Assembly (NCBI GenBank): GCA_963576565.1
Contig: OY755040.1
Coordinates: 81,094,541-81,158,540 of the forward strand
DNA: 64,000 bases
Direction: 5' to 3'
From: Aspidapion aeneum
Lineage: Eukaryota > Arthropoda > Insecta > Coleoptera > Brentidae
The position numbers and the translations under genes are program-made. Shown piece by piece: positions 5,701 through 43,728 of this stretch (positions within the stretch are counted from its first letter, which is position 1; each line of letters starts with the position of its first letter). A model generated the notes under the pieces. It was not told the origin of the DNA and made no database searches. It saw only the letters and a program-made list of their open reading frames with translations.

Positions 5701-6816
5701 TAACTAGTATTAAAAATTTTCAATAAAATAAAAACAAAATATAAAATTTAAGTAGGGAGGGGATAATATTTTATTAGGTACTTATATCTAATTTCTTCTA
5801 AGATTGTTCTTTAGGGGCTTATTGGATAAACGATAAAAAAATTGTGAAATTACGAAAACCATATTTTTACAGTTTCCCCCTATTTGAGGAGGTTGGAGAG
5901 CATTCTTTAAGATTATCTGATTTCGCTGAAAATTGGTATATAATAGTTCTTGATATATAAAATTAAAAATTTTCGTGAAAATTAATTGTATGTATGTATA
6001 TGAAATTTAAGTGAGGAGGGGGGTAATCTAATCTCCTACTTTCTCTAATTTCTCTTAAAATTGGTGTGTAGGGGCTAATCGGATTAAGGAAGATTTATTT
6101 GGTTAGATTTTAAAAACTATGAAGTTGAAAGCTTCTTGCCCCCCCCCCCTCGCGTTTTAGTACGTAGGTCCGATTTTGTCTAAATTTCATGTATGGGTTG
6201 TTCTTGAAAAATCGTAACATTGCATGTAATTAATTTGTATATTTAAAACCACTTATTCTTTTGAAATCATAATAAGTGTATAGTTAGTGTACCCAAAGGC
6301 TAACATTTTCCAGCAGCAATGAACTCTCCACAAAATATCTCCATGGAAGTAAAACTGTTCACACTATGTGACATGTCACGTGGTGTGATCTGTAATTTTC
6401 AAAGTTAATAGATTTGAATAGTACAAAAAAAATTTCGAGATAATAAAATTGATTTTGGTGATTATTAAAGTGGACCAAAACTAAAAAATTTTAATTTCTA
6501 AAAAATATTTGCTGATATCAGTTTTTAGTATCTTTACAAAAAAACAAAAAATCCATCTGTAATTAATTTTACTGTCACTGGCGTGGTCAGATGCAGTCAC
6601 AGGTTTTTTTTAATCTGCCATCACTGCTTAATTTACCCATCTGATTTACCTGAAAACAGGGTAGCACCAATTTAAGGATGTACTGTGAAATGGGTTATAT
6701 AATTCAGTTTTTGTGAAGTTCTAGTGATGTTAAAATAGATTTAACGTTTTGGCCGAGATAAGTGTCACACGTGTTTCTACAAATATAAGGAGTAAATAGT
6801 AAAATATTTACAAAAG
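5701..6816. other. No gene or recognisable element
   Basis: AT-rich sequence with short repeats of the phrase TTTAAGTGAGGAGGGG / TTTAAGTAGGGAGGGG near 5747 and 6006. No ORF, RNA or transposon end could be supported on either strand. Confidence 0.5.
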
Positions 6817-6962
6817 TGGAATTTCGTACCCGTGAATTTAAAAATCAAACAAGTTTCGTGGCTAATCGGGCAAAAAGGAGTTTTTTGTTTCCCTTATATT
6901 TTTCCGTGGGTAGCCTGAAAGCTTAACCTCACGGGGGTCCAAGATCTAATGGACACCTAATA

Positions 6963-7010
6963 AGTGTTGACAGTTAACCGTTTCGTCCTTATGGGACTCC
7001 TCAGAACACT
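6963..7010 (-). ncRNA. Hammerhead ribozyme, satellite copy 1
   Basis: Read on the minus strand this is the same 48-nt motif as at 7497-7544, with all core nucleotides, both strands of stem I, and stem II conserved. It lies in the oppositely oriented satellite unit, so a transcript of the plus strand would not contain an active form from this copy. Confidence 0.88.
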
Positions 7011-7496
7011 GCTGGTCAATGTGACAAACCTTGCGAAGGTAATCAGACGGTTTTGTCTCTAATTAAATGTAATTAGTGAGCGAACTATAGCAAGAGGCGC
7101 CATCTACCGAGATACGAGAGAAACAAAAAACTAAAAGCAGGCGAAAACACTGCTATACAATGTCGATCAATGAAAAGATCGAATGCAAATAAAAGAAAAC
7201 AACTATAGTCCGTGACATACGACAGCTCTTTGTCTTTCAGGCCGGATCAATACAGATTGCATTTTTACCCGTCTTCAAGACAGTGAGCGTCAATCAACGG
7301 AATTTTTAAGCCAAATAATACTAACAAACGTGGAATTTCGTACCCGTGAATTTAAAAATCAAACAAGTGCTTTTAGTTTTTTGTTTCTCTCGTATCTCGG
7401 TAGATGGCGCCTCTTGCTATAGTTCGCTCACTAATTACATTTAATTAGAGACAAAACCGTCTGATTAACTTCGCAAGATTTGTCACATTGACCAGC

Positions 7497-7544
7497 AGTG
7501 TTCTGAGGAGTCCCATAAGGACGAAACGGTTAACTGTCAACACT
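7497..7544 (+). ncRNA. Hammerhead ribozyme (type I), satellite copy 2
   Basis: All elements of a minimal hammerhead are visible. Stem I is AGTGTT (7497-7502) paired with AACACT (7539-7544). The conserved core is CTGAGGA (7503-7509), fitting CUGANGA. Stem II is GTCC/GGAC (7510-7513/7519-7522) with loop CATAA. Then comes GAAA (7523-7526). Stem III is ACGG/CTGT with a TTAA loop, including one G-U pair. The predicted cleavage follows C7538 in the GTC context. The family self-cleaves RNA by transesterification. Stem III is short, so activity may depend on loop contacts or dimers. Confidence 0.92.
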
Positions 7545-8010
7545 TATTAGGTGTCCATTAGATCTTGGACCCCCGTGAGGTTAAGCTTTCAGGCTACCCA
7601 CGGAAAAATATAAGGGAAACAAAAAACTCCCTTTTGCGCGATTAGCCACGAAACTTGTTTGATTTTTAAATTCACGGGTACGAAATTCCAGGTTTGTTAG
7701 TATTATTTGGCTTAAAAATTCCGTTGATTGACGCTCACTGTCTTGAAGACGGGTAAAAATGCAATCTGTGTTGATCCGGCCTGAAAGACAAAGAGCTGTC
7801 GTAGGTCACGGACTATAGTTGTTTTCTTTTATTTGCCTTCGATCTTTTCATTGATCGACAGTGTATAGCAGTGTTTTCGCCTGCTTTTAGTTTTTTGTTT
7901 CTCTCGTATCTCGGTAGATGGCGCCTCTTGCTATAGTTCGCCCACTAATTACATTTAATTAGAGATAAAACCGTCTGATTAACTTCGCAAGATTTGTCAC
8001 ATTGACCAGC

Positions 8011-8058
8011 AGTGTTCTGAGGAGTCCCATAAGGACGAAACGGTTAACTGTCAACACT
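8011..8058 (+). ncRNA. Hammerhead ribozyme, satellite copy 3
   Basis: Identical to the copy 514 bp upstream over the whole motif, with predicted cleavage after 8052. A plus-strand transcript spanning both would release a linear monomer of exactly 514 nt, with a 2',3'-cyclic phosphate and a 5'-hydroxyl if cleavage follows the usual chemistry. Confidence 0.9.
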
Positions 8059-8168
8059 TATTAGGTGTCCATTAGATCTTGGACCCCCGTGAGGTTAAGC
8101 TTTCAGGCTACCCACGGAAAAATATAAGGGAAACAAAAAACTCCTTTTTGCCCGATTAGCCACGAATC

Positions 8169-8669
8169 ATGTTTAATTAGTAAAATATTTATTTTCAAAA
8201 CTGTTCCAAGTACCAGAAGAAGCATGGGCGTAGTCAGGGTGAGGCAGGGTGGGGCACTTGCCCCACCCTGGCTTGTCACCTGCCCCATCCTGGCTTTAGC
8301 TCATTTAATAATACGAGAATTAAAGGAGAAATAAATATTTGATTGTATATTTTTTTTGATTTTTTGCTCCACCCTGAGTAATAGTGACAGTTTTGCTTTT
8401 TTTGTTATTTAGACATTTAGCTAAATGTCACTTGTGTGAACATCACTGGTGTGATCTTTTAGAATGTTTTATTGACAACACATTGGTGACATATTTTATA
8501 AGGGTGCCCGTTTATGTACAGTCCACCTGCATTCCTAGACTGTCAGTTGTGTGCACTAGAAACTATCGGACAAACTCGTTAACTAGCACACAAGATAGGG
8601 GCTAGGACTGCAGGCAGACTGTGTGTAAATGGGTAGCTTAATTTAAAAAATCAATAGTTTTTAGAAATC
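8169..8669. other. No gene; short GC-rich palindromic patch
   Basis: Apart from a GC-rich patch at about 8226-8296 (GGGTGGGGCA and TGCCCCACCC face each other, with CCACCCTGGC and CCATCCTGGC repeated), nothing is recognised. The patch resembles a small degenerate inverted-repeat element. An open frame at 8384-8605 has no recognisable domain and is not supported as a gene. Confidence 0.45.
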
Positions 8670-14198: not shown

Positions 14199-16317
14199 TT
14201 TTTTTTTTTTTTTTTTATTTGTCAAACACACTTTGTTTTTTTTTATTACAATCTAGTCAGTAAGACTAATTAGCAATTTTGTTTTAACTTAATTTACTAG
14301 AAAAGTCAGATTTAAACTTAGGGTTCACTCAACAGTTCTCCCTGCTTTGTTTAGTCTGTAACTCACAATTGTGTTGTGTTTATAGCATTATTTTGTTTTA
14401 TGTGTAATTCACTTAGTTTACTAGCTCAAACGGCTGCACTCTTTTTAGTCGTCGAACTAGCATAGTATTGCCTAGAAGCTGAATTGCTTCCACATTCACA
14501 TGCCGATGGAGTCTATCTGCATGGCTTTTTGCGTACTTTTTTATAGTCTCTGCTACAGTTTCGATTTTTAGATCTCGATGAAGGTCACTATTTCGAACGT
14601 ACCAAGGTGCATTCACAATGTTTCTTAATACTTTATTTTAAAATCTCTGTACAACTAGAATGTTACTCTCTTTAGCACAACCCCATAGTTGAATACCATA
14701 TGTCCATACTGGTTTCAGTATTTGTCTATAAAGCAGTAACTTATTATGAATTGTTAAATTGGACTTCCTTCCAATTAGCCAGTTCATTTTTCTATACCTT
14801 ATCTCAAGTTTTTTTTTTTTCTTAACATGTGCTTTCCAGCGCAATTTGGTATCAAGTGTCATACCTAGATATTTTGCCTGATTCGAATATGGTACTGGAA
14901 TGTTGTTAATTGTTATTTGTATGTGATTTATATTTTTGTTTGTAAAATCAACATGAATTGATTTGGTTTCATTTAATTTTATTCGCCACTTTGTGGTCCA
15001 ACTGTGAATTTGGGTGACTGCATCCTGAAGTTTCTCTATGCATTTTTCAATAGATTTTTCTACCGTCAATAAACCAGTATCATCGGCAAATGTTGCTAAG
15101 TGACAATTTTCTGGCTTTGGGATATCACAAGTGAATAATAAGTATAGATAAGGGCCTAGTACGCTACCCTGGGGCACGCCTGCTTGAATTTCTCTTAAAT
15201 TTGAGTATGAGTCTTCCTGTTTTACTCTAAAATGTCTATCAGATATGTATGATTCCAAAATATCCGAATACTGTTTTGGCAGAAACCTTTTTCGTTTAAA
15301 ATTAAGGCCTTCATGCCACACTTTGTCAAATGCTTGTGCTACATCTAGAAAAACTGCAGAACAAACTTTTCCCTCTTCTAGTGCTTTTTCTATTATATTA
15401 GTAATTCTGTGTACTTGATCTATCGTGGAATGCTTGTCTCGAAAACCAAATTGATGAGATGGAATAATTTCTTGTGTTTCTATGATGGGTTTTATTCTTT
15501 TAAGCAATAATTTTTCATAGAGCTTGGATATAATTGGCAGCAAAGATATTGGCCTGTAAGATGACACGTCATGGAGTGGTTTTCCCGGTTTTGGAATCAT
15601 GATAACTTCTGCAACTTTCCACAGTTTAGGTACGTACCTAAGCCTAAAAGACGCATTAATTAGGTTGCATAGTTTTACGATAGCTTTTCTGGGGAGTTGT
15701 TTTATGACTACCCCGTTAATAAGATCATACCCTGGGGCTTTTTTCGAATTAATATTTTTGATTTCTGTTAATATTTCTTTTGGTGATGTTAGCTTAATAT
15801 GGTCCTCGATTTGATGGGGTTCATTTAAATGAAAGTGTTCATCTGGTGCTTCGTGGGGCTGAAATGTTTTTTCTAAATGACTTGCAAAAATATCTGCTTT
15901 TTCTTCGTTACTCCTTGCCCACTGGTTGTTAGATTTTCGTATGGGTGGAATTTGGATAATTGGTCTTTTAAAATCTTTGGTTGCTTTCCAAAGGGAATAG
16001 TCGGTATTTTTATCATCTGTAAGCTCATTAAGAAAATGGTTAATAGATTCATTTTTTATTACTAGAATTTCTCGCCTAATGCGCTGCGTCATGTTGTTGA
16101 GATTTGTTTTGTCCCGAGGATCACGGCTTTGTTGCCACTTTCTTCTTAGTTTCCTTTTTTCCAATATAAGGTCTCTAATTTCCTTTGGATAGTTTTTTCC
16201 CTTAAAAATTCTCTTTGGTTTTGGACTGTTTTCCCAAGCTGCTTGTTGAATATTAGTAACAAAATAATCAACTTCTTTATCGATTTGTTCTGGCGTTTGC
16301 AATGGTACTGATAGGTT
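14199..16317 (-). mobile_element. Jockey-like LINE, 5'-truncated copy 1
   Basis: Minus-strand element ending in a homopolymer tail (T-run at 14199-14217). It retains the 3' two-thirds of ORF2 plus the 3' UTR. It is nearly identical to the longer copy at 40170-45267, from which the uninterrupted structure is known. Homology to that copy stops abruptly at about 16317, where the duplicated target begins. High identity between the copies points to a recently active family. Confidence 0.93.
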
Positions 16318-16341
16318 TAAATATATGGATGATTCTACCAA
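14413..16341 (-). pseudogene. Jockey-like ORF2 fragment (reverse transcriptase)
   Basis: Open from 16341 to a stop at 14638-14640, then in frame to 14413. Reverse transcriptase motifs are clear: PGYDLINGVVIK, YRPISLLPIISKLYEK, QFGFRDKHSTIDQV, the D-containing VFLDVAQAFDKVW, GVPQGSVLGPYLYLLF and the active-site FADDTGLLTV. A thumb with KYLGMTLDTKLRW follows. The endonuclease is absent through 5' truncation. The stop in VVQRF* replaces a Gln codon found in the other copy (CAA to TAA). The first eight residues come from flanking DNA. Confidence 0.92.
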
Positions 16342-17238
16342 AAGTGGGCTAAATGGATATCATTTTTGGTCATTGCCTTTAAATAACAGTACAGCACAGT
16401 AAATAATTGTTTTTTTCAAATTTATGTAACTAATTCGGTGTAAGCTAAGAAACATTTATTTTCCCTAATTTTAGGAATTATTGCATAAAAATTCCAGAGG
16501 CATGAGTACCACAGGAATAAGTTTTTTAATGGTTTTCCAATCTAAATCAAAATCTATTTAGACTACTTAACTTATAAACAAAGTTCCTACACTTATAATT
16601 TTAAAACAATCAACAAAAATATTATACTATTTATATCAGTCGAATATTTACTTACCAGAGGAATAATAATTAAAGCGTTCCTTTTTGATTTCTCTGAAAA
16701 AAACTAATTTTCTGCCGAAAATAAAAAGATCTATAACTTAAACCAAACTAAAGTTGACATTATCTGTCACAACTTGTCACCTTCACAAGTAAATTAGATA
16801 TCCAGGGCCGTCTCTTTCTCTAGAAATTAACCGGTGGTATTCACAAATATTGTGTTATTAAAAATGGAGCACGCTTAAAATTGTAAAATTTTCCGGAGAA
16901 AATGTAAATTCGGATTTTCAAAAATATGACTGCAAACTTAAGTTTTATCAATTTTTTGATAAATAGTTAAGACTTGGTTAAATATTATTTATTAGGATAT
17001 TTTTCAATCGGAGTTTTTAATATTTGGTTTGGGACTACACCAGAGGAATGAGGTATTTGCTTTATAATAAAAAAAATTATAAACTTGCAATTTTTTTTAT
17101 ACATTAAACTCAAATGCTCCATAAAGAAAACATTTCGTTTTAAATCTTATAACTAAAACTATGCTTCATTTGCAGTCTGTGTTTGAAAAATATGCATTCC
17201 CACTCCACAGCACCATTTTTGTAGAATCATCCATATAT
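16321..17238. mobile_element. 918-bp element with 30-bp imperfect TIRs
   Basis: The left end 16321-16350 begins ATATATGGATGATTCTAC. The right end 17209-17238 is its imperfect complement (GTAGAATCATCCATATAT). No transposase is encoded, so this is a non-autonomous TIR element. The Jockey-like copy landed at its outer left edge, so the LINE's target-site duplication copies the first bases of the TIR to 14186-14198. Confidence 0.6.
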
Positions 17239-19303: not shown

Positions 19304-20009
19304 ATGGTATTTGTTTGCATGAAGAATCTTTTTCAGTAAGTACTTTTGATTTTTTACAGATTATTTATTATTAAACGAATACAGGATAATTTTTAAAAAA
19401 GAAACTAAAAAGTATTAAATTTTAGTTTTATATACTTTTAACTTTTTATAGAAAATTTATTATTACTAAAAACCTTACATGAATCCAAGATAATATTTTT
19501 ATAAAAAAAATATTCTTAATTTTTTAATAGCAAAGAAATTATATTGAATTTTAATTTATTTGTCTTAATTTTGATGTTATTATTTTTTCAGTTTTGGAGT
19601 AAAGAAGATAAGTTTAAAAGGTGATAAAGCCTTTGTCAGACTATCATATTCACCTAGAACAGAAACCATAGACAAAAAATTCGGTAAGCTGCCAGTGAAG
19701 TATTATCGAATAAAGGCGGATGATGATGAAGAAATTGCTATCCTACAGCGAGCGATAGAAAGATACCAAATTAATGTTGATCAACCTATGGAGATTGAGA
19801 CAACAAAAAATTTGGCTGTGTTACCACCACCACCACCACCCTCCGATCCAATGGAAATAACAGCTGTTGGAGAGTCGTCTGGGGGACCAACAGCAGCAAC
19901 ATCTACAAAAGCAGTAGATACCACCCAAGCACAAAGAAGAAGAAGCAGAAAGGGTGTGGTGTCCACTGTATCCGAAAAACAAACAACAAATAATAAGTCT
20001 CTTCGATGA
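19304..20009 (+). CDS. Two-exon gene of unknown function, 149 aa
   Basis: Exon 1 is 19304-19335 (32 nt from an ATG) and exon 2 is 19592-20009. The 256-bp intron starts GTAAGT at 19336 and ends in a T-rich tract plus CAG at 19591. Splicing restores one continuous frame of exactly 150 codons including the stop. The product is charged, with DDDEE, a run of six prolines, a Thr/Ala/Ser-rich stretch, and a basic RRRSRKG patch near the C terminus that could be a nuclear localisation signal. An AATAAA-type poly-A signal series lies at 20064-20080. It converges with the next gene. I do not recognise the family. It may be an accessory gene of the Polinton-like element, or host. Confidence 0.6.
19336..19591 (+). 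other. Predicted spliceosomal intron
   Basis: The 5' site is CA|GTAAGTA. The 3' site follows TATTATTTTTTCAG. Without splicing, the exon 2 frame has no convincing ATG near its start. Removing the intron joins an ATG-led exon in frame. Confidence 0.6.
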
Positions 20010-20083
20010 AGAGGATCCTTTAACACAAACCCAAGCTTTTTTTTAATTTTTAATATTTTGCTAAAATAAAATAAAATAAAAGG

Positions 20084-20577
20084 TTAAAACTGAATATGCT
20101 TTTTATTTAAATACCATCTATTTAACAAAATTACATTTTCTCTAGCACAATTTAAATAATAATTATTATGCATTTCACAGTGAAACTTATCATTACAATA
20201 ATTTTTTAATTTATTAATATTGGGACATCCCAAGTCATATAAATCTACAACATTATTATTAACTAAATTACATAACCAAACTTTTTTTCATTTCCTTTTA
20301 CAAACACAGTTTCATTTTGAATTAAATCCTTAATAAATAAAGCGAGGTTTTCAAATGGTAAATAACTAAAATCAAAAGTGTCCCAATTTATACCATGAAG
20401 TTTGTTTGTATTCCATTCAGCTTGATGTTTAAAGTCTTGATGTAACCAGATGGACTTCATGGGTAAATTAACGATATGGTGCCGAACTTCATTAGTATAG
20501 GTGTTTAATATAGCTATTTCCTTACATATAAATTCAGTGTCTTTGTACTGGAAACCTTGCACATCCAAAATAAACAT
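20084..20577 (-). pseudogene. Conserved Polinton accessory protein, frameshifted
   Basis: Starts ATG at 20577 with MFILDVQGF, followed by a strongly conserved-looking N-terminal half. The first frame runs to a stop at 20263. The reading clearly continues in another frame after a seven-T homopolymer at about 20283-20289, down to a stop at 20084-20086. The downstream part contains DLGCPNINKLKNYC and paired Cys/His residues (FHCEMHNN, LNCAREN). The protein may be nuclease-like, with an Asp-containing first strand and C/H-rich tail, but no catalytic set can be proved here. Tail-to-tail with the two-exon gene on its left and 3' of the capsid genes. Confidence 0.65.
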
Positions 20578-20588
20578 TTTTTTCTTCT

Positions 20589-21823
20589 TTAAACTACCCT
20601 TACGGTACTGGTTAGAGGGTTGTATTTCACAAGTCGATCGTGTAATATTAAACAGTAGGCTATAGTTTTATCAGGTACAGCTTTTTTCATTTCAAACTCA
20701 ATTCTAATGTCAACTGCACCACCTTTGAGCACGTCTTCACTCTGTCGAGAGCAGTCGATAACTACCAGTGGAGCATCATTTTTAAAGCCTATCGGGTGAA
20801 AACAAGGTTCGCTTTGATCGTGGTAATAATAGGATTTTTGAAACTGGGCATACATTTCATATAGAATAGCATACTGATTGTTATCAAAATCTAAATTTAA
20901 ATTATCATATGAAAAAACTTCGGAGTTTAAATAGACTTTTAAATTGGTTAATGATAAGTGGTCAAAACGGCTCATATTTTTACTAAACAAGTTTTTTCTA
21001 TCTGTCTGAAATCCAATAATAATGAAACGTGATGTCTCCAGTTGATTTGAAGTTTTCACTGCCCATGTGTGATTAGTGGTAGTTTGAAGTTGTGGATACT
21101 CATGCAATTCCCAACTTCGAAAACTAATATTAATATCTCTGTTACCCTCTAAATACTTGTAAAGGCGTAATTTTTGATCATCTGACACTCTAACATGTGG
21201 AATTTTCCAATGAACTTTATTTAACACCACCTTATATTTTTCTTTTTTATCCTCAGTTTCAATTAAAGCGTTTAAATCGGAATTGCTGCGAATCAACACG
21301 AGTTCTTGTCGTACATTTAAAATAATCTTGTGATGGTCCTCAAATACCCCCATAAGGGTTTTTAGGGGTAAACATATATTGAAATTACCGGAACCGCTGT
21401 GGTAGTATCTAATATAGGTGGATTTTCTTTAAGTGTCCAACCAGCATTTTGAAGGGTGTTACCATCACTTTCCTTGAATGAGCAGTAACCTTTTATTGTT
21501 GATGTAATCCCAGGATTTCTAACACGGTCCACAATCACCCCTCCTAACTCATAACGAATTTCATCAAATAAATGTGCTAAACCATTGTTTACAAAGTGCA
21601 CATTAGTACTGGCAGTATTGTCATCTTTCAGTACTTTTCCTTCAAGGTAAAGAACACTTTCACTAGGCAGGGTATAGATGTCTTGAGTTTGTATCGGAAT
21701 TTGAATTTCATCATTGTTGTTTAAGGTGGTTGAAGCATATGGTTGATGAGTGTGTAGTTGGTAACTCACAATCGAATTATCATAGAGCACGTTTTCACCC
21801 ACTCGTAGAATGTTACGACTCAT
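20589..21823 (-). pseudogene. Major capsid protein (double jelly-roll), frameshifted
   Basis: The N-terminal frame begins at the ATG at 21823 (MSRNILRVGEN; an upstream TTG at 21832 is less likely) and ends at 21362. The C-terminal frame is open at 21353-20589, with NVRQELVLIRSNSD near its start. The two lie in different phases, with the break at about 21370-21390. Together they give about 410 residues, within the expected range for the Polinton hexon-like capsid protein, which forms the pseudohexameric capsomers. Typical strands include YQLHTHQPYAS at the N terminus and a conserved Arg/Lys-rich close. Order in the block is accessory, capsid, small protein, penton, protease. Confidence 0.85.
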
Positions 21824-21940
21824 TTTTTTCAAAACACTTTAAACTACACCGCACTGAAAAAAATATTCTTCTTATACCACAACTGACACGTACTTTTAAA
21901 TTATACCAAAATTTCTTAAGTCTTTTGCCTATGATGGTAG

Positions 21941-22132
21941 TTATTGTCCTTTTAGTTTAAATCCTAAAGATACTAAAAAAGCTCTATTTTCAGGTGTTAG
22001 CTCTTTGACTAGCTGTTTATTACTAAATGGTGGTACACTATCAATCTTCTTATAAATTTTATTACTTTCCTCTAAGGCGGTAATTTCTTCATAAGGAATA
22101 CCAAAAGTATTATGATTATACAAAAACACCAT
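21941..22132 (-). CDS. Small conserved protein between capsid genes, 63 aa
   Basis: Intact ORF from ATG 22132, just downstream of the penton-like gene (about 2 bp gap) and upstream of the capsid gene. The C terminus, LTPENRAFLVSLGFKLKG, looks structured and constrained. The N-terminal half is polar and may be flexible. Position and tight spacing argue that it is a genuine virion-block gene. I cannot assign a function, though a minor virion or cement-like role is possible. Confidence 0.6.
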   Translation of the reverse strand: MVFLYNHNTFGIPYEEITALEESNKIYKKIDSVPPFSNKQLVKELTPENRAFLVSLGFKLKGQ

Positions 22133-22134
22133 TT

Positions 22135-22833
22135 TTAAACGGATTTTTTTAGATGCAGCCTAATCGTGACCACTTCTCCACGAAAATTGATGGGTTTTCC
22201 ATCTTGGTCAGTTATTTTAAGTAAAATATCATCAATATAATGAGTGCTGATTGGTAGATATATCACATTTGAGGGTCTTTCTATAATTTTATAACCTCGA
22301 GGAGAAGAGGGGTAAAACATGTCTAACATGTGCACTGCTTTTCCGTTATTATAAGAGTTTATAACCAAGTTGCACTCAACACATATAGCATTCACTTTTA
22401 ATATATCAACCGGATTTTCAGATATATGTTTTTTATCTGCCTCTAGAGTTTATCCTGCAAATCCTAGTAAACTTCCAATGGAATTTTCCTTTTCAAAATT
22501 AATCTTTTTATTGCATATAACCTCACACTGTAAGGTATTATGGTTAGCTGTTATACTTATTTCAAATTGTTCCTCCTTTAAAGTTTGCTTTGAGTATTTA
22601 TTTAGCAAATCGTTTAAGTCCTTAATTTCGTATGACCTCTCAGGTATTTTTATAATTTTATCATCATTAAAGCAAAATAAATTATTTGAACTATCCACAT
22701 TCGGTATTGAGTTGTAACTTTCGAAATTAATGAGCCCCAAATCATATTGCTCAAGCTCGTTTAGCACTATAGGTGGATAGATGTTTGCTGAAAGGAGTGA
22801 TGATTTTCCGGATAAGGTAAAGGTGTAGGACAT
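22135..22833 (-). pseudogene. Minor capsid protein (penton-like single jelly-roll), nonsense mutation
   Basis: The likely start is the internal ATG at 22833 (MSYTFTLSGKSS), not the 5' one at 22872. The frame is interrupted by TAA at 22450-22452, and exactly the same frame then continues to 22135 (NAICVECNLVINSYNNG, PSNVIYLPI). The full span is 232 residues, suitable for the single jelly-roll protein that occupies the capsid vertices in Polintons. One substitution suffices to explain the break. The gene lies directly downstream of the protease (62 bp). Confidence 0.82.
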
Positions 22834-22894
22834 GTTTACTATATAGCGGGTCACTGATAAATGAAAAACCATGTAGTTTAGTAGACGTTTTTTA

Positions 22895-23311
22895 TTAACC
22901 CTTAAAGTAATACAAAAAACTTAAACACAAGTGTCCACAATTTACAGAATCATAAGTCTGGTAGAACTTATAATTATACAGTATTTTTGAGTCACCATTA
23001 GAACTAAAGTATCTTACAGATTCTATAGGAGGTCGTAAATTACCAAAACTATCAAAATAGTGTACATTATTTTTAATTTTCTTATAACAAGTCCAATGAC
23101 TTCCTGATCCTCTGCTACTATCTAAATTAATTATCCCCGACTCAAATTTATGTATCTTTGAGGGTAGTTCATCTCTCATAAACACACCTCTAAAATGTTT
23201 AATTTTTAACAGCTTTGTATACTTTTTTAGGTAAATATTTGTAAGAGCTCGCTGTGGTAGTGAAATCGGTAAAGTTTTCTTGAAAAACTTTAGGTTTTTG
23301 TTTTTTGACAT
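22895..23311 (-). CDS. Adenovirus-type maturation protease (C5-like cysteine protease)
   Basis: A 138-residue intact ORF. The catalytic set of the adenain/Ulp1 fold is visible in order: His72 in GSHWTCY, Asp87 in YFDSFG, Gln118 in YQTYDSV, and nucleophile Cys125 in NCGHLC. The family processes capsid and core precursors during virion maturation. It is shorter than adenain but usual for Polinton versions. The start at 23311 overlaps the 3' end of the pX-like gene by 22 bp in another frame. This is one of few virion genes here without a disabling mutation. Confidence 0.9.
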   Translation of the reverse strand: MSKNKNLKFFKKTLPISLPQRALTNIYLKKYTKLLKIKHFRGVFMRDELPSKIHKFESGIINLDSSRGSGSHWTCYKKIKNNVHYFDSFGNLRPPIESVRYFSSNGDSKILYNYKFYQTYDSVNCGHLCLSFLYYFKG

Positions 23312-23790
23312 CCACCTTTGTGTAAAAAAAGACCCATTCCTAGTTTATATGGTTTGAGAAATAATCCTTTACCCATAGCAATGGACTCCATACTTTGGTT
23401 ATGTCGTTGAGCCTCTTGCAATTGTTGATTTGCAGATTAAGCAGCATTAATGGCTTTCACTATTCCTGCGGTGCCGCTGCTTAAAGCACCAAGGGCAGAG
23501 AGAGTCGCCATGATTGGTATTAGAGGCAAAAAACAACCCTTTTTTGGTAGTTTTATTATTCGTGCAGGTCGTACTTTTCCTTTGTTTTTTTCCGCTGTCT
23601 TGAGAGCAACTTTGACTGCAGTTTCAAAGTCTTGTGGTTTTCGTTGTTTTAATCTATCCTTTATCTTTTTTGTTGCTTGACTGAAACTCAATTTTTTGAT
23701 TTTTTTCTTTACAATTCGTGCCCTCTTTCTTTTAAAAGTTGATGTTTTTTTACTTTTTATGGGTTTTCTTGATTTTCTCGTTTTACTCAT
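23290..23790 (-). pseudogene. pX-like basic core/membrane-active protein, nonsense mutation
   Basis: From ATG 23790: a very basic N terminus (KKIKK, KRKRAR), a middle that ends in KLPKKGCFLPLIPIM, then a Gly/Ala-rich hydrophobic segment (ALGALSSGTAGIV). This arrangement is that of adenovirus pX/pVI-related proteins of Polintons. TAA at 23437-23439 interrupts it, and the same frame continues with a Gln-rich helix and GKGLFLKPYKLGMGLF to a natural stop at 23290-23292, inside the protease start region. Probable role: condensing DNA and/or membrane disruption on entry. Confidence 0.78.
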
Positions 23791-23871
23791 TTTTTAAGAA
23801 TGATGTTACTACCTTGAAAGTTTACACAAGAATGAAAGCAACTGATATGTGTGTTTGAAGGTGTTTAAGAT

Positions 23872-24742
23872 TTATATAACTTTTGGTTTTTTAATGTTGC
23901 TATGCATATTGTCATTTTCTTCACCATCAATGCATAATCTCCGCTTTAGGGACTTCTGCTCCAATGGTCCTTCACTCAAAACAGCAGTTGTGTCGGTTTT
24001 TGGTAATTTAAAGGGAACATCAACCGAATCGCTTAACTTTCTCTTTCTTTTGACTTTTAAAAATTTTGGTAATTTAAAAGGAATATCCACCGAGTCGCTT
24101 AACTTTCTCTTTCTTTTGACTCTTAACAATGTTGGTTCTTTATGTAAAGGGGGTGAATTAGTTTCCATAGCTTCTGTTTCAGGTTCATCTTTTTTTACTT
24201 TTTTTAACCGTGGTTTTCTTGGTTTAGATGATGATGATTTTCTCGTTGTTTGTGATGGATTTTTAATTTGACCCTCTAGAGTTTCAAGAGAGCCTAAATA
24301 ATTTTTTGTCATCTTTATCCCACGTTGAATCATATTTAGGCACTGACGCACTGCCTTTAAACGTGGCACTTGATCACTTTTTGATAAATAATTTACCATA
24401 CCCATCCCTAGGTTTAGCTTGGTACCCATAGCAGCAGCCACACCAGAAGCAGCCAGTTTTTCATACAAGCCTGAATCCGTTGCTCGCATCCGTTCTAAAG
24501 CTTTTCTCATTAAAACTTTATCTGCCTCATGACGGTCGGTCAACTCCATATTAGTTGAATAGGAAATGTCATGATCTTTGCATGCTGTATCAAGCTGGTT
24601 AATACCTTTATCCCCTCTGGCTAAACGTTTCTCAAGCTTAGTCCCAGGTCCACAATAAGATATGCATTTCGAAGGGCAGATTATTTATAGCACTGTTCAA
24701 CAACCCTTGCCCTTTAACGTTTGAACTAACATAGTACTTCAT
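23872..24742 (-). pseudogene. Phospholipase A2-domain virion protein, frameshifted
   Basis: The first frame starts at ATG 24742 (MKYYVSSNVKGQGLLN) and stops in about 35 codons. The PLA2-like domain is in another phase from about 24670: calcium-loop YCGPGT at 24640-24657, then DTACKDHDISYS with the catalytic His-Asp at 24568-24573. An Ala/Gly-rich stretch and a basic tail follow, to the stop at 23872. This is the same type of domain used by parvovirus VP1 for endosome escape. The tail contains two tandem copies of a 22-residue unit with VKRKRKLSDSVD (24000-24132). The break lies at about 24655-24670. Confidence 0.8.
24000..24132. repeat. 66-bp tandem duplication inside PLA2-gene tail
   Basis: Two consecutive, nearly identical 66-bp units encode VKRKRKLSDSVD followed by I/V-PFKLPK. 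The duplicated element is a basic cluster plus Ser-Asp, resembling a nuclear localisation signal. The duplication preserves the frame. Confidence 0.85.
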
Positions 24743-24840
24743 AGCGTTTCACTTAAGACTAAATAAAAACGAGGGTCTTTACTTTTTTTTATACATTACC
24801 AGTTCAACAGTGTTAAGTTGACATAATATTTCTATAGAAA
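24743..24840. promoter_or_regulatory. Divergent promoter region
   Basis: A 98-bp gap separates the leftward virion block from the rightward ATPase gene, with starts at 24742 and 24841. It is AT-rich and holds TATA-like words (TTTTTTTTATACA at 24785-24797). Both transcription blocks must start in or near here. The assignment is inferred from gene geometry only. Confidence 0.45.
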
Positions 24841-25523
24841 ATGAAAAAGATTGTTAAACAAAAAGTGCGTTTAGAAGTTAAAAACCATGATATTAATGCA
24901 AGTACTACATCAAGACATGGTTTCCTGTTTCCATCATCTATTAGATGTCTTATTGTGGGCCCATCAAACTGTGGAAAAACCAACCTTATATTGAGCCTTT
25001 TGGAACATTCAAACGGTTTAAAGTTTAAAAATGTGTATGTGTATTCAAAAAGTCTATACCAGCCAAAGTATTTATATTAGGAGAATCTATTAAAACCCAT
25101 TAAAGAAATAGGGTACTATGCTTACAACAGTGGCGAAAATATAATTCCTCCATCAGAAGCAAATCCGTTTTCCATTTTCATATTTGATGACGTAGCCTGC
25201 GATAAACAAGATGTGATGCGTACTACTTTAGTATGGGTCGACATAATAATATTGACAGTTTCTATCTCTCTCAAACATATGCAAAAATACCTAAACATTT
25301 AATAAGAGACAATGCCAACGTTTTAATTTTATTCAAACAAGATTTACTAAATGTAAAATATATATACACCAACCATATTGGCACTGATATGACATTTGAT
25401 GAATTTCAAAAGATGTGTGCATACTGCTGGAAAAAACCGTATGATTTTTTGACAATTTTTAAAGATTGTGATATTGATAAGGGAAGATATCGGTATCGTT
25501 TTGATAACTTTATATATCTTTAG
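24841..25523 (+). pseudogene. DNA packaging ATPase (A32/FtsK-HerA type), two breaks
   Basis: Starts at ATG 24841. Walker A GPSNCGKTN is at residues 40-48, and Walker B FIFDDVACD is at about 25178-25204. The frame is broken by TAG at 25078-25080 (same frame continues) and by a frameshift near 25225-25232, after which 25233-25523 carries SLSQTYAKIPKHLIRDNAN, including the sensor-like Gln. The full span of about 227 residues is normal for Polinton ATPases, which pump genomic DNA into preformed capsids. It is the first gene of the rightward block. Confidence 0.87.
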
Positions 25524-25583
25524 ATTCAAATACTTCTTAGTGTTAATAGTTATAACGCACCTGTAGAGATAACATAGATAAAA

Positions 25584-26795
25584 ATGTCAGAAGAAAACAT
25601 AAAAATGGTTAGTGGTGAAAAAAACTTAAAGAAACAATTAATTTCTAAAAGAAAAATAATACGTGAGAAATTAAATTTGTTAAAACAGGGTCAGATTTCA
25701 CAGGCTAACCTATTTCAACCCATTACAAAACACTTGGAAAATATTGAATCTAGTTTAACCGATAAAAATCCTCCGAAACTGGTCAATATACCTTCATTAT
25801 CACCCAGATTGACAACTCCTCAAAAAATCAAGCAAGAAAACGAAAAACAACAACAAGAAAAACAGGAAGAACTTGAAGATCTGCAAACTTCATCGCTTTT
25901 TCATAAGAATTTTGATAATAACAGTGCAGAAGAAGATGAAAAACATATGCATGAACCAAGTGTTTACATGCAAGACTTATTCCAGTCAACTCCTCGAAAT
26001 CCAAATCCTACAACACCGACAACCGAAAAGAGAGCTAAACGAAAATTAAATTTTTCTTTAAGTGCTAAAAAACTAAATAAGCCCACCACAAGTGGTTACT
26101 TTTTGAGAAAAGCAGTGTTAAAAGATGCAGCAGAGAACTTTACACAGAATGAGGCCAAAAAGCAAGAAGAGTTTGAAAACGGACGACTTAGAGACTTGAT
26201 GAATAAATCTGAGAATGACTACTACAGTCAGTTTCATCCTTCACTTGCAAGCTATATTAAAGAATTTTTAGATGATCCATCCACCGTGCCTTCTGACCCA
26301 CAAAATTATTTTTCCAAGTTTCGTGTAAGGCGAGATGATATTGACAATTTTTATATTGTTGATTCGAAAATTGATTTTGATGGAGCTGATTTAATTATAA
26401 AAGGTAAACGCTATAAAGGTACACATGGTTTGTACAAATTACTCTTTCGAAAAAATATGCCTACAAAGTACACCCAAGATGACGCAGACGCCTTTCGAGA
26501 CATTATTGAACACACCTATGCAAACAGAAAACATCATAAGGCCTCTGGAGATGTGATAACCGATAGCTACTCAACCAAATTTAAGAAACTGTTTAGTGAC
26601 ATATATAAAGGTGGAAATCTAGAGGAGGAGATGGAGTACTCCGATAGTCCTATAGAGTACGTGTACTGGGATAATCCCAATGAACTTGTAGAACGGTTAC
26701 GTTTATTATTAGCATCTCAGACAGCTGGCAACACAGGTCACACAAACGAAATCTACTCCATAGTTGAGGAGCTGCAAGAAGCCAATATTATTTAG
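25584..26795 (+). CDS. Conserved 403-aa Polinton protein of unknown function
   Basis: Intact ORF between ATPase and integrase. Residues 1-60 are basic and helical. Residues about 60-170 are low-complexity, rich in Gln/Glu and Ser/Thr/Pro (runs such as EKQQQEKQEE). Residues about 210-403 look globular: a block with KGKRYKGTHGLYKLLF, and a highly structured C terminus with DNPNELVERLRLLLASQTAG. By layout this is the long protein commonly found beside the integrase in arthropod Polinton-like elements. Its role is unknown, and a structural or DNA-bound function is only a guess. Absence of stops over 404 codons, while neighbours are broken, is notable. Confidence 0.75.
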   Translation: MSEENIKMVSGEKNLKKQLISKRKIIREKLNLLKQGQISQANLFQPITKHLENIESSLTDKNPPKLVNIPSLSPRLTTPQKIKQENEKQQQEKQEELEDLQTSSLFHKNFDNNSAEEDEKHMHEPSVYMQDLFQSTPRNPNPTTPTTEKRAKRKLNFSLSAKKLNKPTTSGYFLRKAVLKDAAENFTQNEAKKQEEFENGRLRDLMNKSENDYYSQFHPSLASYIKEFLDDPSTVPSDPQNYFSKFRVRRDDIDNFYIVDSKIDFDGADLIIKGKRYKGTHGLYKLLFRKNMPTKYTQDDADAFRDIIEHTYANRKHHKASGDVITDSYSTKFKKLFSDIYKGGNLEEEMEYSDSPIEYVYWDNPNELVERLRLLLASQTAGNTGHTNEIYSIVEELQEANII

Positions 26796-26802
26796 AACAG
26801 AG

Positions 26803-27738
26803 ATGGTTAATAATTTTATTACAGATGTTAAGCAACAAGTAGTTAATGAAATACACAAACCGGCTAGAATTAATTTTTTACGATGTAGAGTGATTGTGAA
26901 ATCACTAAATGATCTATTTCAAGCAGATCTTGTGGAGATGATACCGTACGCAAACGAAAACAAAGGTTTTAAATACATTTTAGTGGTTATTAACTGTTTC
27001 TCGAAATATGTTTGGGCCTATCCATTAAAAACAAAAACTGGGGAAGAAGTGTCAAAAGCTATAGAAAAAGTGCTTAAAGAACAGGTACCACTTCATCTTC
27101 AAACCGATCATGGGAAAGAGTTTTACAATTGGACTATAGAAAAACCGTTGAAAAAATACAAGGTCAAACACTATAGTTCATTTAGTGAAAAAAAGGCTCA
27201 AATTGTTGCGAGGGTAAACCGAACCCTTAAAAACCTAATGTGGAAAGAATTTAACTATCAAGGATCTTACAAATGGTATGGTATCCTACCAAAGATTGTT
27301 CAAATTTATAACAATCGGAAACATCGAACTGTAGGGATGAAACCCTCAGAGGTGCGACAAAAACATGACAAACTATTGCTCAAAACGGTCTATAATCATA
27401 TAAAGATTACATTTAAACCAAAATACAAGGTTGGTGACCATGTTCGAATTTCAAAACTACGAGGTGTGTTTGATAAGAAATACATGCCAAATTGGTCTAC
27501 TGAAATTTTTACTGTTAAGAAAATTCAGCTCACTAACCCAGTAACATACCTATTAGAGGATGCTAGTAAAAATGAAATTAAGGGAGGATTCTATGAACTT
27601 CAGCTGCAAAAAGTAAAATATTCTGATATATATTCAGTAGAAAAAATTTTAAAACGTGTCAAAAATAAAGTGTTTGTAAAGTGGTTAGGATTTGATAATA
27701 AACATAATAGCTGGATAGATAAAAGTAATGTTGCTTAG
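26803..27738 (+). CDS. Retroviral-type integrase with chromodomain, catalytic Glu lost
   Basis: The chosen ATG at 26803 gives 311 residues (the longer frame from 26764 overlaps the upstream gene). The rve core shows the first Asp at residue 42 (QADLVEM) and the second at residue 102 (LQTDHGKEF). At residue 136, where the third acidic residue should be (34 positions on), the sequence reads IVARVNRT: GCG (Ala) at 27208-27210. A C-terminal chromodomain ends in FVKWLGFDNKHNSWI. The N-terminal zinc-binding region is short or absent. The family joins element ends to target DNA. With Ala at the catalytic Glu this copy should be inactive although its frame is open. Confidence 0.9.
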   Translation: MVNNFITDVKQQVVNEIHKPARINFLRCRVIVKSLNDLFQADLVEMIPYANENKGFKYILVVINCFSKYVWAYPLKTKTGEEVSKAIEKVLKEQVPLHLQTDHGKEFYNWTIEKPLKKYKVKHYSSFSEKKAQIVARVNRTLKNLMWKEFNYQGSYKWYGILPKIVQIYNNRKHRTVGMKPSEVRQKHDKLLLKTVYNHIKITFKPKYKVGDHVRISKLRGVFDKKYMPNWSTEIFTVKKIQLTNPVTYLLEDASKNEIKGGFYELQLQKVKYSDIYSVEKILKRVKNKVFVKWLGFDNKHNSWIDKSNVA

Positions 27739-27868
27739 TACTAAATAAAGAGAAACATATAAAACTTATTGGTGTATTTTATTTACTAATTTTCTTAAAA
27801 TATAATTACATTTAGAATAAATATTTAATGGGAACAACCATCCTCTAATTATAGAAGTTACTAAATAA

Positions 27869-28333
27869 CTAAAATTTTAAAAGTTTCTTCCCATTTCGAA
27901 TATTAGTTGACTCTTCCATTTGCTCATCTTCATAAATTCTCCCCTCTTCTGGTTTCATATGTTTCTGACGCATCTCTTCAAAAAACTCTGGAGAGAGATG
28001 TGTTTGATACTTTAATAAGTATTCCCAGTCGATGCGCCATTCATTTTCTCTTATAAAATTTTCAGACATTCGTTGATAACGACAAAGAAAAGGCCAATAG
28101 AGTTCGCTTTTAAACATATGCATAAACGCTTCGCTTAAATTTTGATATCTAGACACATTGGGCCAATGCATCTTATTAATATAGGTCGCCATAAACATAT
28201 CAGATAATCTTTGTTTGCGACAAATTACTTCCCAGTTCACATGGTCACAAAACCATCCAATAAAGTCCTCTGTAATAACTGGTGACGCAGAGATCTCATC
28301 CCACACTTTATTAATACTATTATTTTCAACCAT
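27869..28333 (-). CDS. Repeat protein (W-x-Q-x-LSE-x-F type), 154 aa
   Basis: Start placed at ATG 28333 (the longer frame begins with TTG). It contains about four tandem units of roughly 28 residues: VNWEVICRKQRLSDMFM, HWPNVSRYQNLSEAFM, YWPFLCRYQRMSENFI and DWEYLLKYQTHLSPEFF. Each has Trp, a hydrophobic pair, Gln, Leu-Ser-(Glu/Asp) and an aromatic. Such short helical repeats suggest a solenoid for protein binding. A Glu-rich acidic tail follows. No function can be assigned. The gene points leftward toward the integrase, tail to tail, outside the core virion blocks. Confidence 0.6.
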   Translation of the reverse strand: MVENNSINKVWDEISASPVITEDFIGWFCDHVNWEVICRKQRLSDMFMATYINKMHWPNVSRYQNLSEAFMHMFKSELYWPFLCRYQRMSENFIRENEWRIDWEYLLKYQTHLSPEFFEEMRQKHMKPEEGRIYEDEQMEESTNIRNGKKLLKF

Positions 28334-28431
28334 CTTTAAAAGCGTTCTTTCTGAAAGTAAGAGTTTCAACTTATAAATCCCTCTATTTATAGGTTGAAAT
28401 AAAAGTAACCTTTGACCTTTGATACTTCTTT

Positions 28432-28605
28432 TTAACCTCGATAGCCTTGTTGAATATATTTCTTAACTTCTTCGTTTTTCTTCTGTTCACAAGAGCTGTG
28501 TTTTGTTACAATCCAATCAGCAGGTCGATGTGGATTTCCTTTGGTACAATAGATGCAACGGGGTTCTTTTATTCTTGGTTTATTCCAGTCATAGGTTGGT
28601 AACAT
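28432..28605 (-). CDS. Small Cys/His protein, 57 aa
   Basis: ATG at 28605, stop at 28432-28434. Four candidate zinc ligands: CIYC near residue 18, then an HRP His and a C in the SSCEQKK segment, spaced like a small zinc-binding domain. The rest is basic. It lies 98 bp upstream of the repeat protein in the same direction, so the two may be cotranscribed. Not recognised. The small size makes it tentative, but Cys pairing and position support it. Confidence 0.45.
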   Translation of the reverse strand: MLPTYDWNKPRIKEPRCIYCTKGNPHRPADWIVTKHSSCEQKKNEEVKKYIQQGYRG

Positions 28606-40379: not shown

Positions 40380-43300
40380 TTTACTAGCTCAAACGGCTTC
40401 TTTCTTTTTAGTCTTCCAACTAGCAAAGTATTGTCTAGAAGCTGAATTGCTTCCACATTCACATGCCAATGGAGTCTATCTTCATGGCTTTTTGCGTACT
40501 TTTAGCTCACACATATACTATACTATAGTAGTGTGAGCTATGGTGATCCTAATTTTTTCGAGCAAAAAAAAGTTGCTCCGATTTCAAAATTTTTTATATA
40601 TCTTTGCGTTTCAGATGATTTTCAAACTTTTTTGTTGCGCCGTCTGTCTGTCTGTATGTCTGTAACGACCAACGCGCATAACTCAAAAACCGCTTGGCCG
40701 ATTTTAATGAAATTTGGTACCTGGGCTGGGTTTTGGGCCGAGATGGTCCCATTTAAAAATGAACAAAATCCACCGAACACAAACCAAATAAAAGGGTGGG
40801 GGTCGATTTCAAAAATTAGAGTTTAAGTGAAAATATGGCGTGTGTGATATCAAACGAAAGGTAATTGAGTCTGGAGTTAAACAAAATACATTTTAATTTA
40901 TTTTAAAAAAATGGTGGGGGTATATTTTAAAAATTAGAGTTTAAGTGAAAATATGGTGTGTGTGATATCAATCGAAAGGTAATTGAGTCCGGAGTTTAAA
41001 AAAATACATTTTAGTTTTTGTTTTTTTAAGGGTGGGGGTAGATTTCAAAAATTTGAGTTTAAGTCAAAACATGGCTTGTGTGGTATCAAACAAAAGGTAA
41101 TTTAGTCTGGAGTTGAATAAAATATATTTTAGTTTTTAGTTATATTAGCTCACACGTACACTATAAATATAGTACCTAGTGTGAGCTTAGGGGCCCATAT
41201 ATTGGCAGAGTATTTTATAGTCTCTGCTACAGTTTCGATATTCAGATCTCGATGAAGGTCACTATTTCGAACGTACCAAGGTGCATTCACAATGTTTCTT
41301 AATACTTTATTTTGAAATCTCTGTACAACTAGAATGTTACTCTCTTTAGCACAACCCCATAGTTGAATACCATATGTCCATACTGGTTTCAGTATTTGTC
41401 TATAAAGCAGTAACTTATTATGAATTGTTAAATTGGACTTCCTTCCAATTAGCCAGTTCATTTTTCTATACCTTATCTCAAGTTCTTCTTTTTTTTTCTT
41501 AACATGTGCTTTCCAGCGCAATTTGGCATCAAGTGTCATACCTAGATATTTTGCCTGATTCGAATATGGTACTGGAATGTTGTTAATTGTTATTTGTATG
41601 TGATTAATATTTTTGTTTGTAAAATCAACATGAATTGATTTGGTTTCATTTAATTTTATTCGCCACTTTGTGGTCCAACTGTGAACTTGGGTGACTGCAT
41701 CCTGAAGTTTTTCTATGCATTTTTCAATAGATTTTTCTACCGTCAATAAACCAGTATCATCGGCAAATGTTGCTAAGTGACAATTTTCTGGCTTTGGGAT
41801 ATCACAAGTGAATAATAACTATAGATAAGGGCCTAGTACGCTACCCCGGGGCACGCCTGCTTGAATTTCTCGTAAACTTGAGTATGAGTCTTCCTGTTTT
41901 ACTCTAAAATGTCTATCAGATATGTATGATTCCAAAATGGCAGAAACCGTTTTAGTTTAAAATTGAGGCCTTCATGCCACACTTTTTCAAATGCTTGTGC
42001 TACATCTAGAAAAACTGCAGAACAAACTTTTCCCCCTTCTAGTGCTTTTTCTATTATATTAGTGATTCTGTGTACTTGATCTATCGCGGAATGCTGTCTC
42101 GAAAACCAAATTGATGATATGGAATAATTTCTTGTCTTTCTATGATGGGTTTTATTCTTTTAAGCAATAATTTTTCATAGCTTGGATATAATTGGCAGCA
42201 AAGATATTGGCCTGTAAGACGACACATCATGGAGTGGTTTTCCTGGTTTTGGAATTATGATAACTTCTGCAACTTTCCACAGTTTAGGTACATACCTAAG
42301 CCTAAAAGACGCATTAATTAGGTTGCATAGTTCTACGATAGCTTTTCTGGGGAGTTGTTTTATGACTACCCCGTTAATAAGATCATGCCCTGGGGCTTTT
42401 TTCGAATTAATATTTTTGATTTCTGTTAATATTTCTTTTGGTGATGTAAGCTTAATATGGTCCTCGATTTGATGGGGTTCATTTAAATGAAAGTGTTCAT
42501 CTGGTGCTTCGTGGGGCTGAAATGTTTTTTCTAAATGACTTGCAAAAATATCTGCTTTTTCTTCGTTACTCCTTGCTCACTGGTTGTTAGATTTTTGTAT
42601 GGGTGGAATTTGGATAATTGGTCTTTTAAAATCTTTGGTTGCTTTCCAAAGGGAATAGTCGGTATTTTTATTATCTGTAAGTTCATTAAGAGAATGGTTA
42701 ATAGATTCATTTTTTATTACTAGAATTTCTCGCCTAATGCGCTGCGTCATGTTGTTAAGATTTGTTTTGTCCCGAGGATCACGGCTTTGCTGCCACTTTC
42801 TTCTTAGTTTCCTTTTTTCCAATAAAAGGTCTCTAATTTCCTTTGGATAGTTTTTTCCCCTAAAAATTCTCTTTGGTTTCGGACTGTTTTCCCAAGCTGC
42901 TTGTTGAATATTTGTAACAAAATATTCAACTTCTTTATCGATTTGTTCTGGCGTTTGCAATGGTACAGATAGGTTTATTTTTTCTGACAGACTTTGTTTA
43001 AAACTAATCCAGTCAGTCAGTTTATTAACTAGTGAAATATTTGCTTCTTTCTTTATTATGTTTTTACTAAGAGTTAGAATAATAGGTAAATGATCTGAGT
43101 GTAAATCAAAACTTTTCTTTATATTTACAAAACTTAAAGATATATTTTTTACTATAAAAAAATCAATTAGATCTGGAATTTTTCCTGGATCTGTTGGATA
43201 GTATGTGAGCTTACCAGTTGATATCGGCTCACATTGATATTCACTAATAGCTTGCAAAAGTTCTTTCCCTTTAGAATTCATCAGTCTAGATCCCCAGTAG

Positions 43301-43728
43301 GTATTTTTTGCATTAAAGTCACCTCCAATTATAAAACGGTTTCCTAATTTTCTGAGAAAATTAAGATATTGATTTTTCTTTAGTAAGTGCCTTGGTGGTA
43401 TATAGACAGCACTTATGACTAATGTATATATTTTGGTTTTTACACTTACTAATGTAGCTTGAATCTCTATGGTTTTATATCCCATCTCCTCATAGTGTGA
43501 TATATTTTCTTTAATTATTACAGCACTTCCCCCATGTGCAGTATTGCTAGGGTGAGTTGTATGATACAATCTATAACCTTTAAATTTAATGTGAGAATGG
43601 TTAGTGAAATGCGTTTCTGACACAAGACAGACGTCAATTTTTTCTATGTATAGAATAACTTGCAACTCTTGCTGGTGTTGCAAGAGACCATTGGCATTCC
43701 AAGCTAGGATTCTAAGATTACTGACCAT
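40380..43728 (-). pseudogene. Jockey-like ORF2 (endonuclease-reverse transcriptase), broken
   Basis: ATG at 43728 overlaps the ORF1 stop by 11 bp. The APE endonuclease is at 43728-43000: RILAWNANGLLQHQ, VSETHFT, SAVYIPPRH, IIGGDFNAKNTYWGS and SDHLPIILT. A stop replaces a Trp codon at about 42577 (NNQ* against NNQWARSNEEK in copy 1). RT then continues with a small deletion near 41938 and the FADDT motif at about 41755. The C-terminal part is interrupted by the hairpin-capped element at 40504-41212 and ends near 40380. Confidence 0.9.
40504..41212 (+). mobile_element. Hairpin-capped element, short copy inside Jockey-like ORF2
   Basis: The left hairpin is AGCTCACAC (40504-40512) / GTGTGAGCT (40531-40539). 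The right hairpin is AGCTCACAC (41147-41155) / GTGTGAGCT (41179-41187), followed by GGCAGAGTATTTT. Three about 120-bp repeats lie between. Comparison with the intact Jockey-like copy at 14527-14545 shows the empty site inside a T-run (GTACTTTTTTATAG), so any target duplication is at most a few T residues. No coding capacity. Confidence 0.85.

Follow-up and report, generated by a model that had tools for sequence, protein, structure and literature searches.

A 514-nt hammerhead ribozyme repeat of Aspidapion aeneum as a probable retrozyme with the insertion anatomy of Penelope-like elements

The hammerhead array of the window

Is a short array of hammerhead-bearing repeats in the genome of the beetle Aspidapion aeneum part of a satellite, or is it the insertion of a mobile element? 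The array lies in a stretch of 64,000 nt, here called the window (contig OY755040.1, positions 81,094,541 to 81,158,540), for which a first-pass annotation had proposed a satellite with a 514-nt period and a canonical hammerhead ribozyme in every unit, possibly a retrozyme. Alignment of the units to one another resolves the array as one insertion with two opposed arms rather than a plain satellite. Its features are listed below; unit positions (u) are numbered from the predicted cut, with u1 at window position 7539.

6797..8191, no strand assigned: entire insertion including both target-site repeat copies, from the 14-bp direct repeat and the arm alignment
6797..6810, no strand assigned: left target-site duplication (TSD), 14 bp, TAGTAAAATATTTA (cross-locus null maximum, 10)
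6811..7368, minus: inverted arm, u115 (inner) round to u158 (outer, "long" end L)
6963..7010, minus: type I hammerhead motif, from Rfam and motif match
7368..8177, plus: plus arm, u344 (inner) to u125 (outer, "short" end S)
7497..7544, plus: type I hammerhead motif, cut predicted at 7538/7539 by the standard rule
7539..8052, plus: complete 514-nt unit, predicted cut to predicted cut, u1-u514
7662..7696, plus: "tail", the internal copy of the stretch from S (about u124) to L (about u158), placed from the ends of TSD-bounded loci
8011..8058, plus: type I hammerhead motif, cut predicted at 8052/8053 by the standard rule
8178..8191, no strand assigned: right TSD, TAGTAAAATATTTA, a perfect direct repeat

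The minus and plus arms, 1.1 and 1.6 units long, meet at 7368 with one base in common, and the perfect 14-bp repeat overlaps or adjoins the outer ends of both. In each arm the side corresponding to the 3′ end of the RNA faces outward. The repeats within the insertion comprise one direct pair 514 nt apart and two long inverted pairs; the plus-strand motif copies are likewise separated by 514 nt, in agreement with the proposed period. Beyond what had been noted before, the minus-strand motif belongs to an inverted arm of the same insertion, which has 14-bp bounds and fixed outer ends. The tandem unit has a GC content of 0.407 (below 50%) and was counted as being without LTR features (LTR, PBS and PPT were not separate search targets). 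No open reading frame of ≥60 amino acids lies wholly within 6797-8191, making the unit non-coding, and the window insertion lacks the open reading frame for a reverse transcriptase and GIY-YIG endonuclease by which a Penelope-like element (PLE) was recognized. The linear unit folds better than shuffled sequences (z, −3.3; 0/100), a result that by itself gives weak support.

The three 48-nt motifs are identical to one another at the positions first annotated, and no match with up to three mismatches was found in 100 shuffles, although a loose core pattern was near chance (9 matches versus 4.0 expected, with ≥9 in 3/100 shuffles). By the standard hammerhead rules, the 48-mer consists of stem I (AGTGTT/AACACT), the core CTGAGGA, stem II (GTCC-CATAA-GGAC) followed by GAA, and stem III (ACGG-TTAA-CTGT), with the cut presumably after C. 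In the covariance-model search that the first-pass annotation had suggested, all three motifs matched Rfam family RF00163 (type I) end to end, but at 24.7 bits (E value, 0.0033, computed for 1.6 kb times 4,227 families) in a permissive scan; the curated cut-off of this family is 34 bits, and a default Rfam scan of the window therefore listed nothing. For the isolated 48-mer the hammerhead fold was predicted at −8.5 kcal/mol and the minimum-energy fold at −9.1 kcal/mol, a gap of 0.6 kcal/mol; the hammerhead is thus not its single best fold, yet a plausible one.

Variation was assessed in 161 copies of the motif, drawn from 36 other loci, the window and a further locus, L051, with substitutions only and up to nine changes allowed. 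The window's 48-nt motif was reproduced exactly in 104 of these and the core was kept in 144, which, with the end-to-end RF00163 matches, upholds the claim of a type I hammerhead in each unit. No pair of the hammerhead was changed on both sides in any copy, and deviation within the hammerhead (1.06%) was close to that of the remainder of the unit (1.17%); among the copies compared there was no signal of excess conservation or compensatory change. An exact scan of viral contigs with 27 nt of the hammerhead gave no match.

A Polinton/Maverick-like block spans window positions 19575-28462 and includes three recognizable domains.

20589..21428, minus: double jelly-roll capsid
23872..24684, minus: phospholipase A2-like domain
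26764..27738, plus: rve integrase

Two LINE fragments on the minus strand (14638-16359, with a reverse transcriptase, and 41150-43764, with an endonuclease) share protein stretches that are near-identical by eye. Tandem repeats of 117 to 118 bp at 239-581 and 40790-41142 appear, also by eye, to be reverse complements of each other.

Genomic copies and their ends

The assembly searched has 149 contigs totalling 1.29 Gb. Searching it with the unit yielded at least 195 matches (the best 38 of 1,015 first candidates were scored) and one with a 181-nt part gave at least 41 (the best 40 of 257 candidates were scored), with copies dispersed over contigs C1 to C11. In total, 41 other loci were read: 36 clusters from the unit search, which are the copies most like the window since they were drawn from the 38 scored of 1,015 candidates; L051 from a search for the GIY-YIG domain; and four from the 181-nt search. 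Arms exceeded 514 nt in 48 of 62 cases. The longest, 8,286 nt, is a single-armed array of about 16 units (L035, 1051-9336). In L051 the L end of a copy at about 1400-1730 is separated by about 100 bp from a GIY-YIG match that contains two in-frame stops.

Direct repeats of 10 to 14 bp (score, ≥10) flanked 13 of 20 two-armed loci, and 11 of the 20 scored ≥12, the complex loci L020, L041 and L043 having been left out of the count; in a cross-locus null of 380 pairs, 1.3% scored ≥10 and none ≥12. The repeats were 81% AT, compared with 63% for the DNA of the loci read. Only 1 of 14 single-armed loci had a repeat scoring ≥10 (2.2% in the null), and single-armed copies therefore appear to have been joined mostly at their variable end without duplication. 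A rotifer Penelope copy joined by microhomology, likewise without duplication, is described in the available text of PMC3846280.

For most arms the outer end coincided with either of two fixed unit positions, which are separated by about 33 nt. Where a direct repeat was present (17 loci), the 15 S ends fell within u119-129 (median, 124) and the 16 L ends within u154-161 (median, 157.5). One end of each kind was present in 14 of these loci; in the remainder one end was at u102 or u37, or there was none (the single-armed L031). When 67 arm ends from 44 elements were assigned by a motif rule, 31 were L, 27 S and 9 neither. The 23 two-armed elements comprised 18 with S and L, four with L and another end, one with S and another end, and none with two like ends, while the 21 elements with one arm in view ended at L (nine), S (eight) or elsewhere (four). 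That all 18 pairs should be unlike has a probability of 4e−6 if S and L are drawn independently at even odds. One of them, L042, was scored S and L by the rule, yet its right arm continues to u181; with it left out, S was paired with L in 17 of 22 two-armed elements and unlike pairs numbered 17/17. The hand-entered arm list omits a 24-nt piece in L013 as well as L020's second element, the left piece of L038 and the plus arm of L043, the latter two being cut.

As a hold-out, 4 of 31 further loci from the 181-nt search were read. L065 had S and L ends with a 14-bp repeat, L062 an L end and an odd end without a repeat, L064 a single arm ending at L, and L063 neither S nor L, giving S with L in one of the two two-armed elements.

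Odd outer ends occurred at u37-48 (L023 and L062), u21 (the second element of L020), u8 (L037) and u102-104 (L014 and L040); these are possibly further start sites or the result of later truncation. Mapping of ends by greedy extension was abandoned because it overran into AT-rich flanks, and the direct-repeat and motif-rule ends given above were used instead. Also dropped as evidence was a stem that encloses the S site in two PLE families and in the retrozyme: its control failed, 44% of unit positions having a stem of ≥5 pairs in the same geometry.

Machinery, template and alternative explanations

PLE loci were sought through the GIY-YIG domain, which has at least 91 matches in the genome. 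One coding family, with RVT_1 and GIY-YIG domains in L053, was read at nine loci (L053-L061). All seven of its two-armed copies paired S with L, with direct repeats scoring 11 to 15 (null maximum, 9 over 42 cross pairs); its S and L motif ends are 34 nt apart, a distance between fixed motifs rather than a per-copy measurement. The three best-scoring named relatives of the host PLE protein are from the ladybird Coccinella septempunctata (48 to 50% identity), and the PLE-linked domain Pfam PF26215 is listed on relatives in the protein search. A loop-less hammerhead of the PLE type was found in five of the eight loci L045-L052 (L046, L047, L048, L050 and L052). At about position 833 of L055, on the plus strand, is a different hammerhead-like core (CTGATGATGG...GAAACATGTC), perhaps from another PLE family.

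The genomic copies themselves show two end sites that pair one to one, target-site duplications, arms of open-ended length and, in the coding PLE, a like anatomy. The best explanation is that the window holds a single inserted copy of an animal-type retrozyme, a hammerhead retroelement that is non-autonomous and non-coding, has a 514-nt unit and was mobilized by PLE machinery, a reading to which we assign a probability of about 0.82. A multi-unit copy would be transcribed, and its hammerheads would cut the transcript into 514-nt RNA that is circularized, unless the multimer remains uncut. A PLE protein, with reverse transcriptase and GIY-YIG endonuclease, would then cut both strands of AT-rich DNA with a stagger of about 12 nt, and reverse transcription of the element RNA would be primed by the two exposed 3′ ends, with S (about u124) as the starting point of one and L (about u158) as that of the other. 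Synthesis by each enzyme would continue for a variable length that frequently exceeds a full unit, and joining of the two cDNAs head to head would give two inverted arms flanked by a TSD. Within this scheme we infer the cleavage, the circularity and the action of the PLE in trans.

Involvement of PLE machinery is argued because the S and L sites, their pairing and the AT-rich duplications match published PLE behaviour, and because a coding PLE of the same genome has the same anatomy (7/7 with S and L). In the anole PLE, reverse transcription starts at two neighbouring internal sites that flank the tail, and both strands are cut and extended, AT-rich DNA being preferred (available text of PMC11167929). 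In rotifers, according to the portion of PMC3846280 at hand, a typical Penelope copy includes an inverted pLTR, and one of its ends bears a 31-bp tail. The case is weakened by the lack of a match between the unit and the PLE loci compared, by the 9 of 67 ends at neither site and the hold-out result of 1/2, by the repeat in only 1 of 14 single-armed copies, by the absence of excess conservation of the hammerhead, and by a sampling of loci that took those most similar to the window.

The strongest alternative retains both the element and the PLE machinery and differs in the template, which would be an uncut multimeric transcript, with hammerhead and RNA circle irrelevant to insertion. Inner ends of 60 arms were distributed evenly around the unit (Rayleigh P = 0.57), and 3 lay within 12 nt of the predicted cut, compared with 2.8 expected. 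With so many arms longer than 514 nt, this even spread excludes a linear monomer and allows either a circle or an uncut multimer. Long source arrays such as L035 do occur, and anole PLE hammerhead mutants insert normally in vitro, so the hammerhead need not take part in insertion; in the available text of PMC11167929 the dominant substrate is unprocessed RNA, and reads beginning or ending at the hammerhead cut are absent. Against an uncut multimer, units diverged by 1.84% within the same arm and 2.04% between opposite arms but by 2.57% between loci; the within-locus mean was reached in none of 2,000 permutations. Divergence between the arms of a locus was smaller than that from the median other locus in 13 of 16 cases (not in L010, L040 or L041, and with a slight difference in L023, L029 and the window), and alleles rare elsewhere were fixed across both arms in 6 of 16. 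On balance we consider an uncut template a serious contender, at somewhat worse than even odds. The likeness of units within a locus points to a single template species for each insertion but does not prove that it was a circle, and could alternatively have arisen by later gene conversion. Our more specific proposal, that a paired PLE complex acts on one RNA species, starts at S and at L and makes several rounds on a hammerhead-made circle, is put forward tentatively, its chance being nearer one-third than one-half. If it is true, a circular RNA would be the direct template of Penelope-type retrotransposition, and the rule of one S and one L would be a genomic read-out of a two-subunit reaction.

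Could the element instead be a fragment or deletion derivative (pLTR) of a PLE, and not a separate retrozyme lineage? Its insertion anatomy is that of PLEs in this genome, and PLEs have hammerheads at the same place. However, comparison of the unit with loci L045-L056 gave no significant match except to the retrozyme embedded in L051, and the unit's hammerhead has a stem III of 4 bp closed by a loop, whereas those PLEs have, by inspection, the loop-less form. None of the PLE loci compared was a coding PLE with the sequence of the retrozyme itself; since few PLE families were compared, a coding parent may exist, and we regard derivation from a PLE as improbable.

Target-primed reverse transcription of the LINE type yields 5′ inversions and duplications through twin priming, the inverted part having a variable internal start. 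LINE reverse transcriptases are present in the window, but such an origin for the inverted arms is very unlikely, given that 18 of 23 elements have one arm starting at S and the other at L, that a coding PLE has the same ends, and that no poly(A) or simple-repeat tail was seen among the ends listed or in TSD-bounded loci. Just as unlikely is an ordinary tandem satellite spread by unequal exchange, with the inverted copy a chance rearrangement: long arrays (up to 8,286 nt) and the greater likeness of units within a locus would fit, but insertions that are bounded and dispersed over C1 to C11, have direct repeats (13/20) and end at fixed outer points do not, and "satellite" was abandoned as the basic description.

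Relation to known hammerhead elements

The guess that the unit is a retrozyme proved correct in kind. Animal non-LTR retrozymes likewise consist of short non-coding tandem units, each with a type I hammerhead, and share a GC content below 50%, no LTR features, TSDs of more than 4 bp when present (here at 13 of 20 two-armed loci) and co-existence with PLEs (available text of PMC7229834). Their units are described as 150 to 450 bp and their RNAs as 170 to 400 nt (PMC7229834, Cervera and de la Peña 2020, in the portion available); the 514-nt unit lies outside this range, which is not a mechanistic criterion. They differ further in that inverted arms with two PLE-type ends are present here, and the word "inverted" does not occur in the main text of PMC7229834. 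Plant LTR retrozymes are likewise non-coding hammerhead retroelements but have a type III hammerhead, an LTR and 4-bp duplications and are moved by Gypsy-type elements, as stated in the same text.

With PLEs, as described in the available texts of PMC11167929 and PMC3846280, the insertions share the two adjacent start sites, a tail of 30 to 40 nt on one inverted end, the AT-rich target, the short TSDs and a hammerhead just upstream of the start sites; PLEs, however, encode a reverse transcriptase and GIY-YIG endonuclease, whereas the 514-nt unit is non-coding with a closed stem III. The earlier statement that the unit has no obvious relation to a coding transposon therefore holds for its sequence, which has no significant match among the PLE loci compared, but not for its insertion anatomy, which is PLE-like.

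Two further systems resemble the element in part. The pDo500 repeat of Dolichopoda cave crickets is also from an insect, with a unit of about 500 bp and a 49-nt hammerhead; it is described as a satellite making up about 5% of one genome, and no description of its insertion ends was found in the available text (PMC2837043). The W-elements of Schistosoma are satellite-like hammerhead repeats proposed to be mobile, with one presumptive TSD; no PLE end signature was found for them, and "retrozyme" is absent from the main text (PMC8490949, as far as available).

PLEs have been named as strong or likely candidates for the mobilization of animal retrozymes because the two co-occur, are tandem and have type I hammerheads (available portions of PMC7229834 and PMC7761336). 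What is new is insertion evidence that ties a retrozyme to PLE reverse transcription, and no report of the tail pattern in any retrozyme was found among the open-access papers listed by literature searches. The retrozyme insertions themselves bear the PLE start-site pattern, as does a coding PLE of the same genome, which makes the idea of this mobilizer testable at named positions. These findings suggest that hammerhead "satellites" may be recognizable as mobile elements by their two ends.
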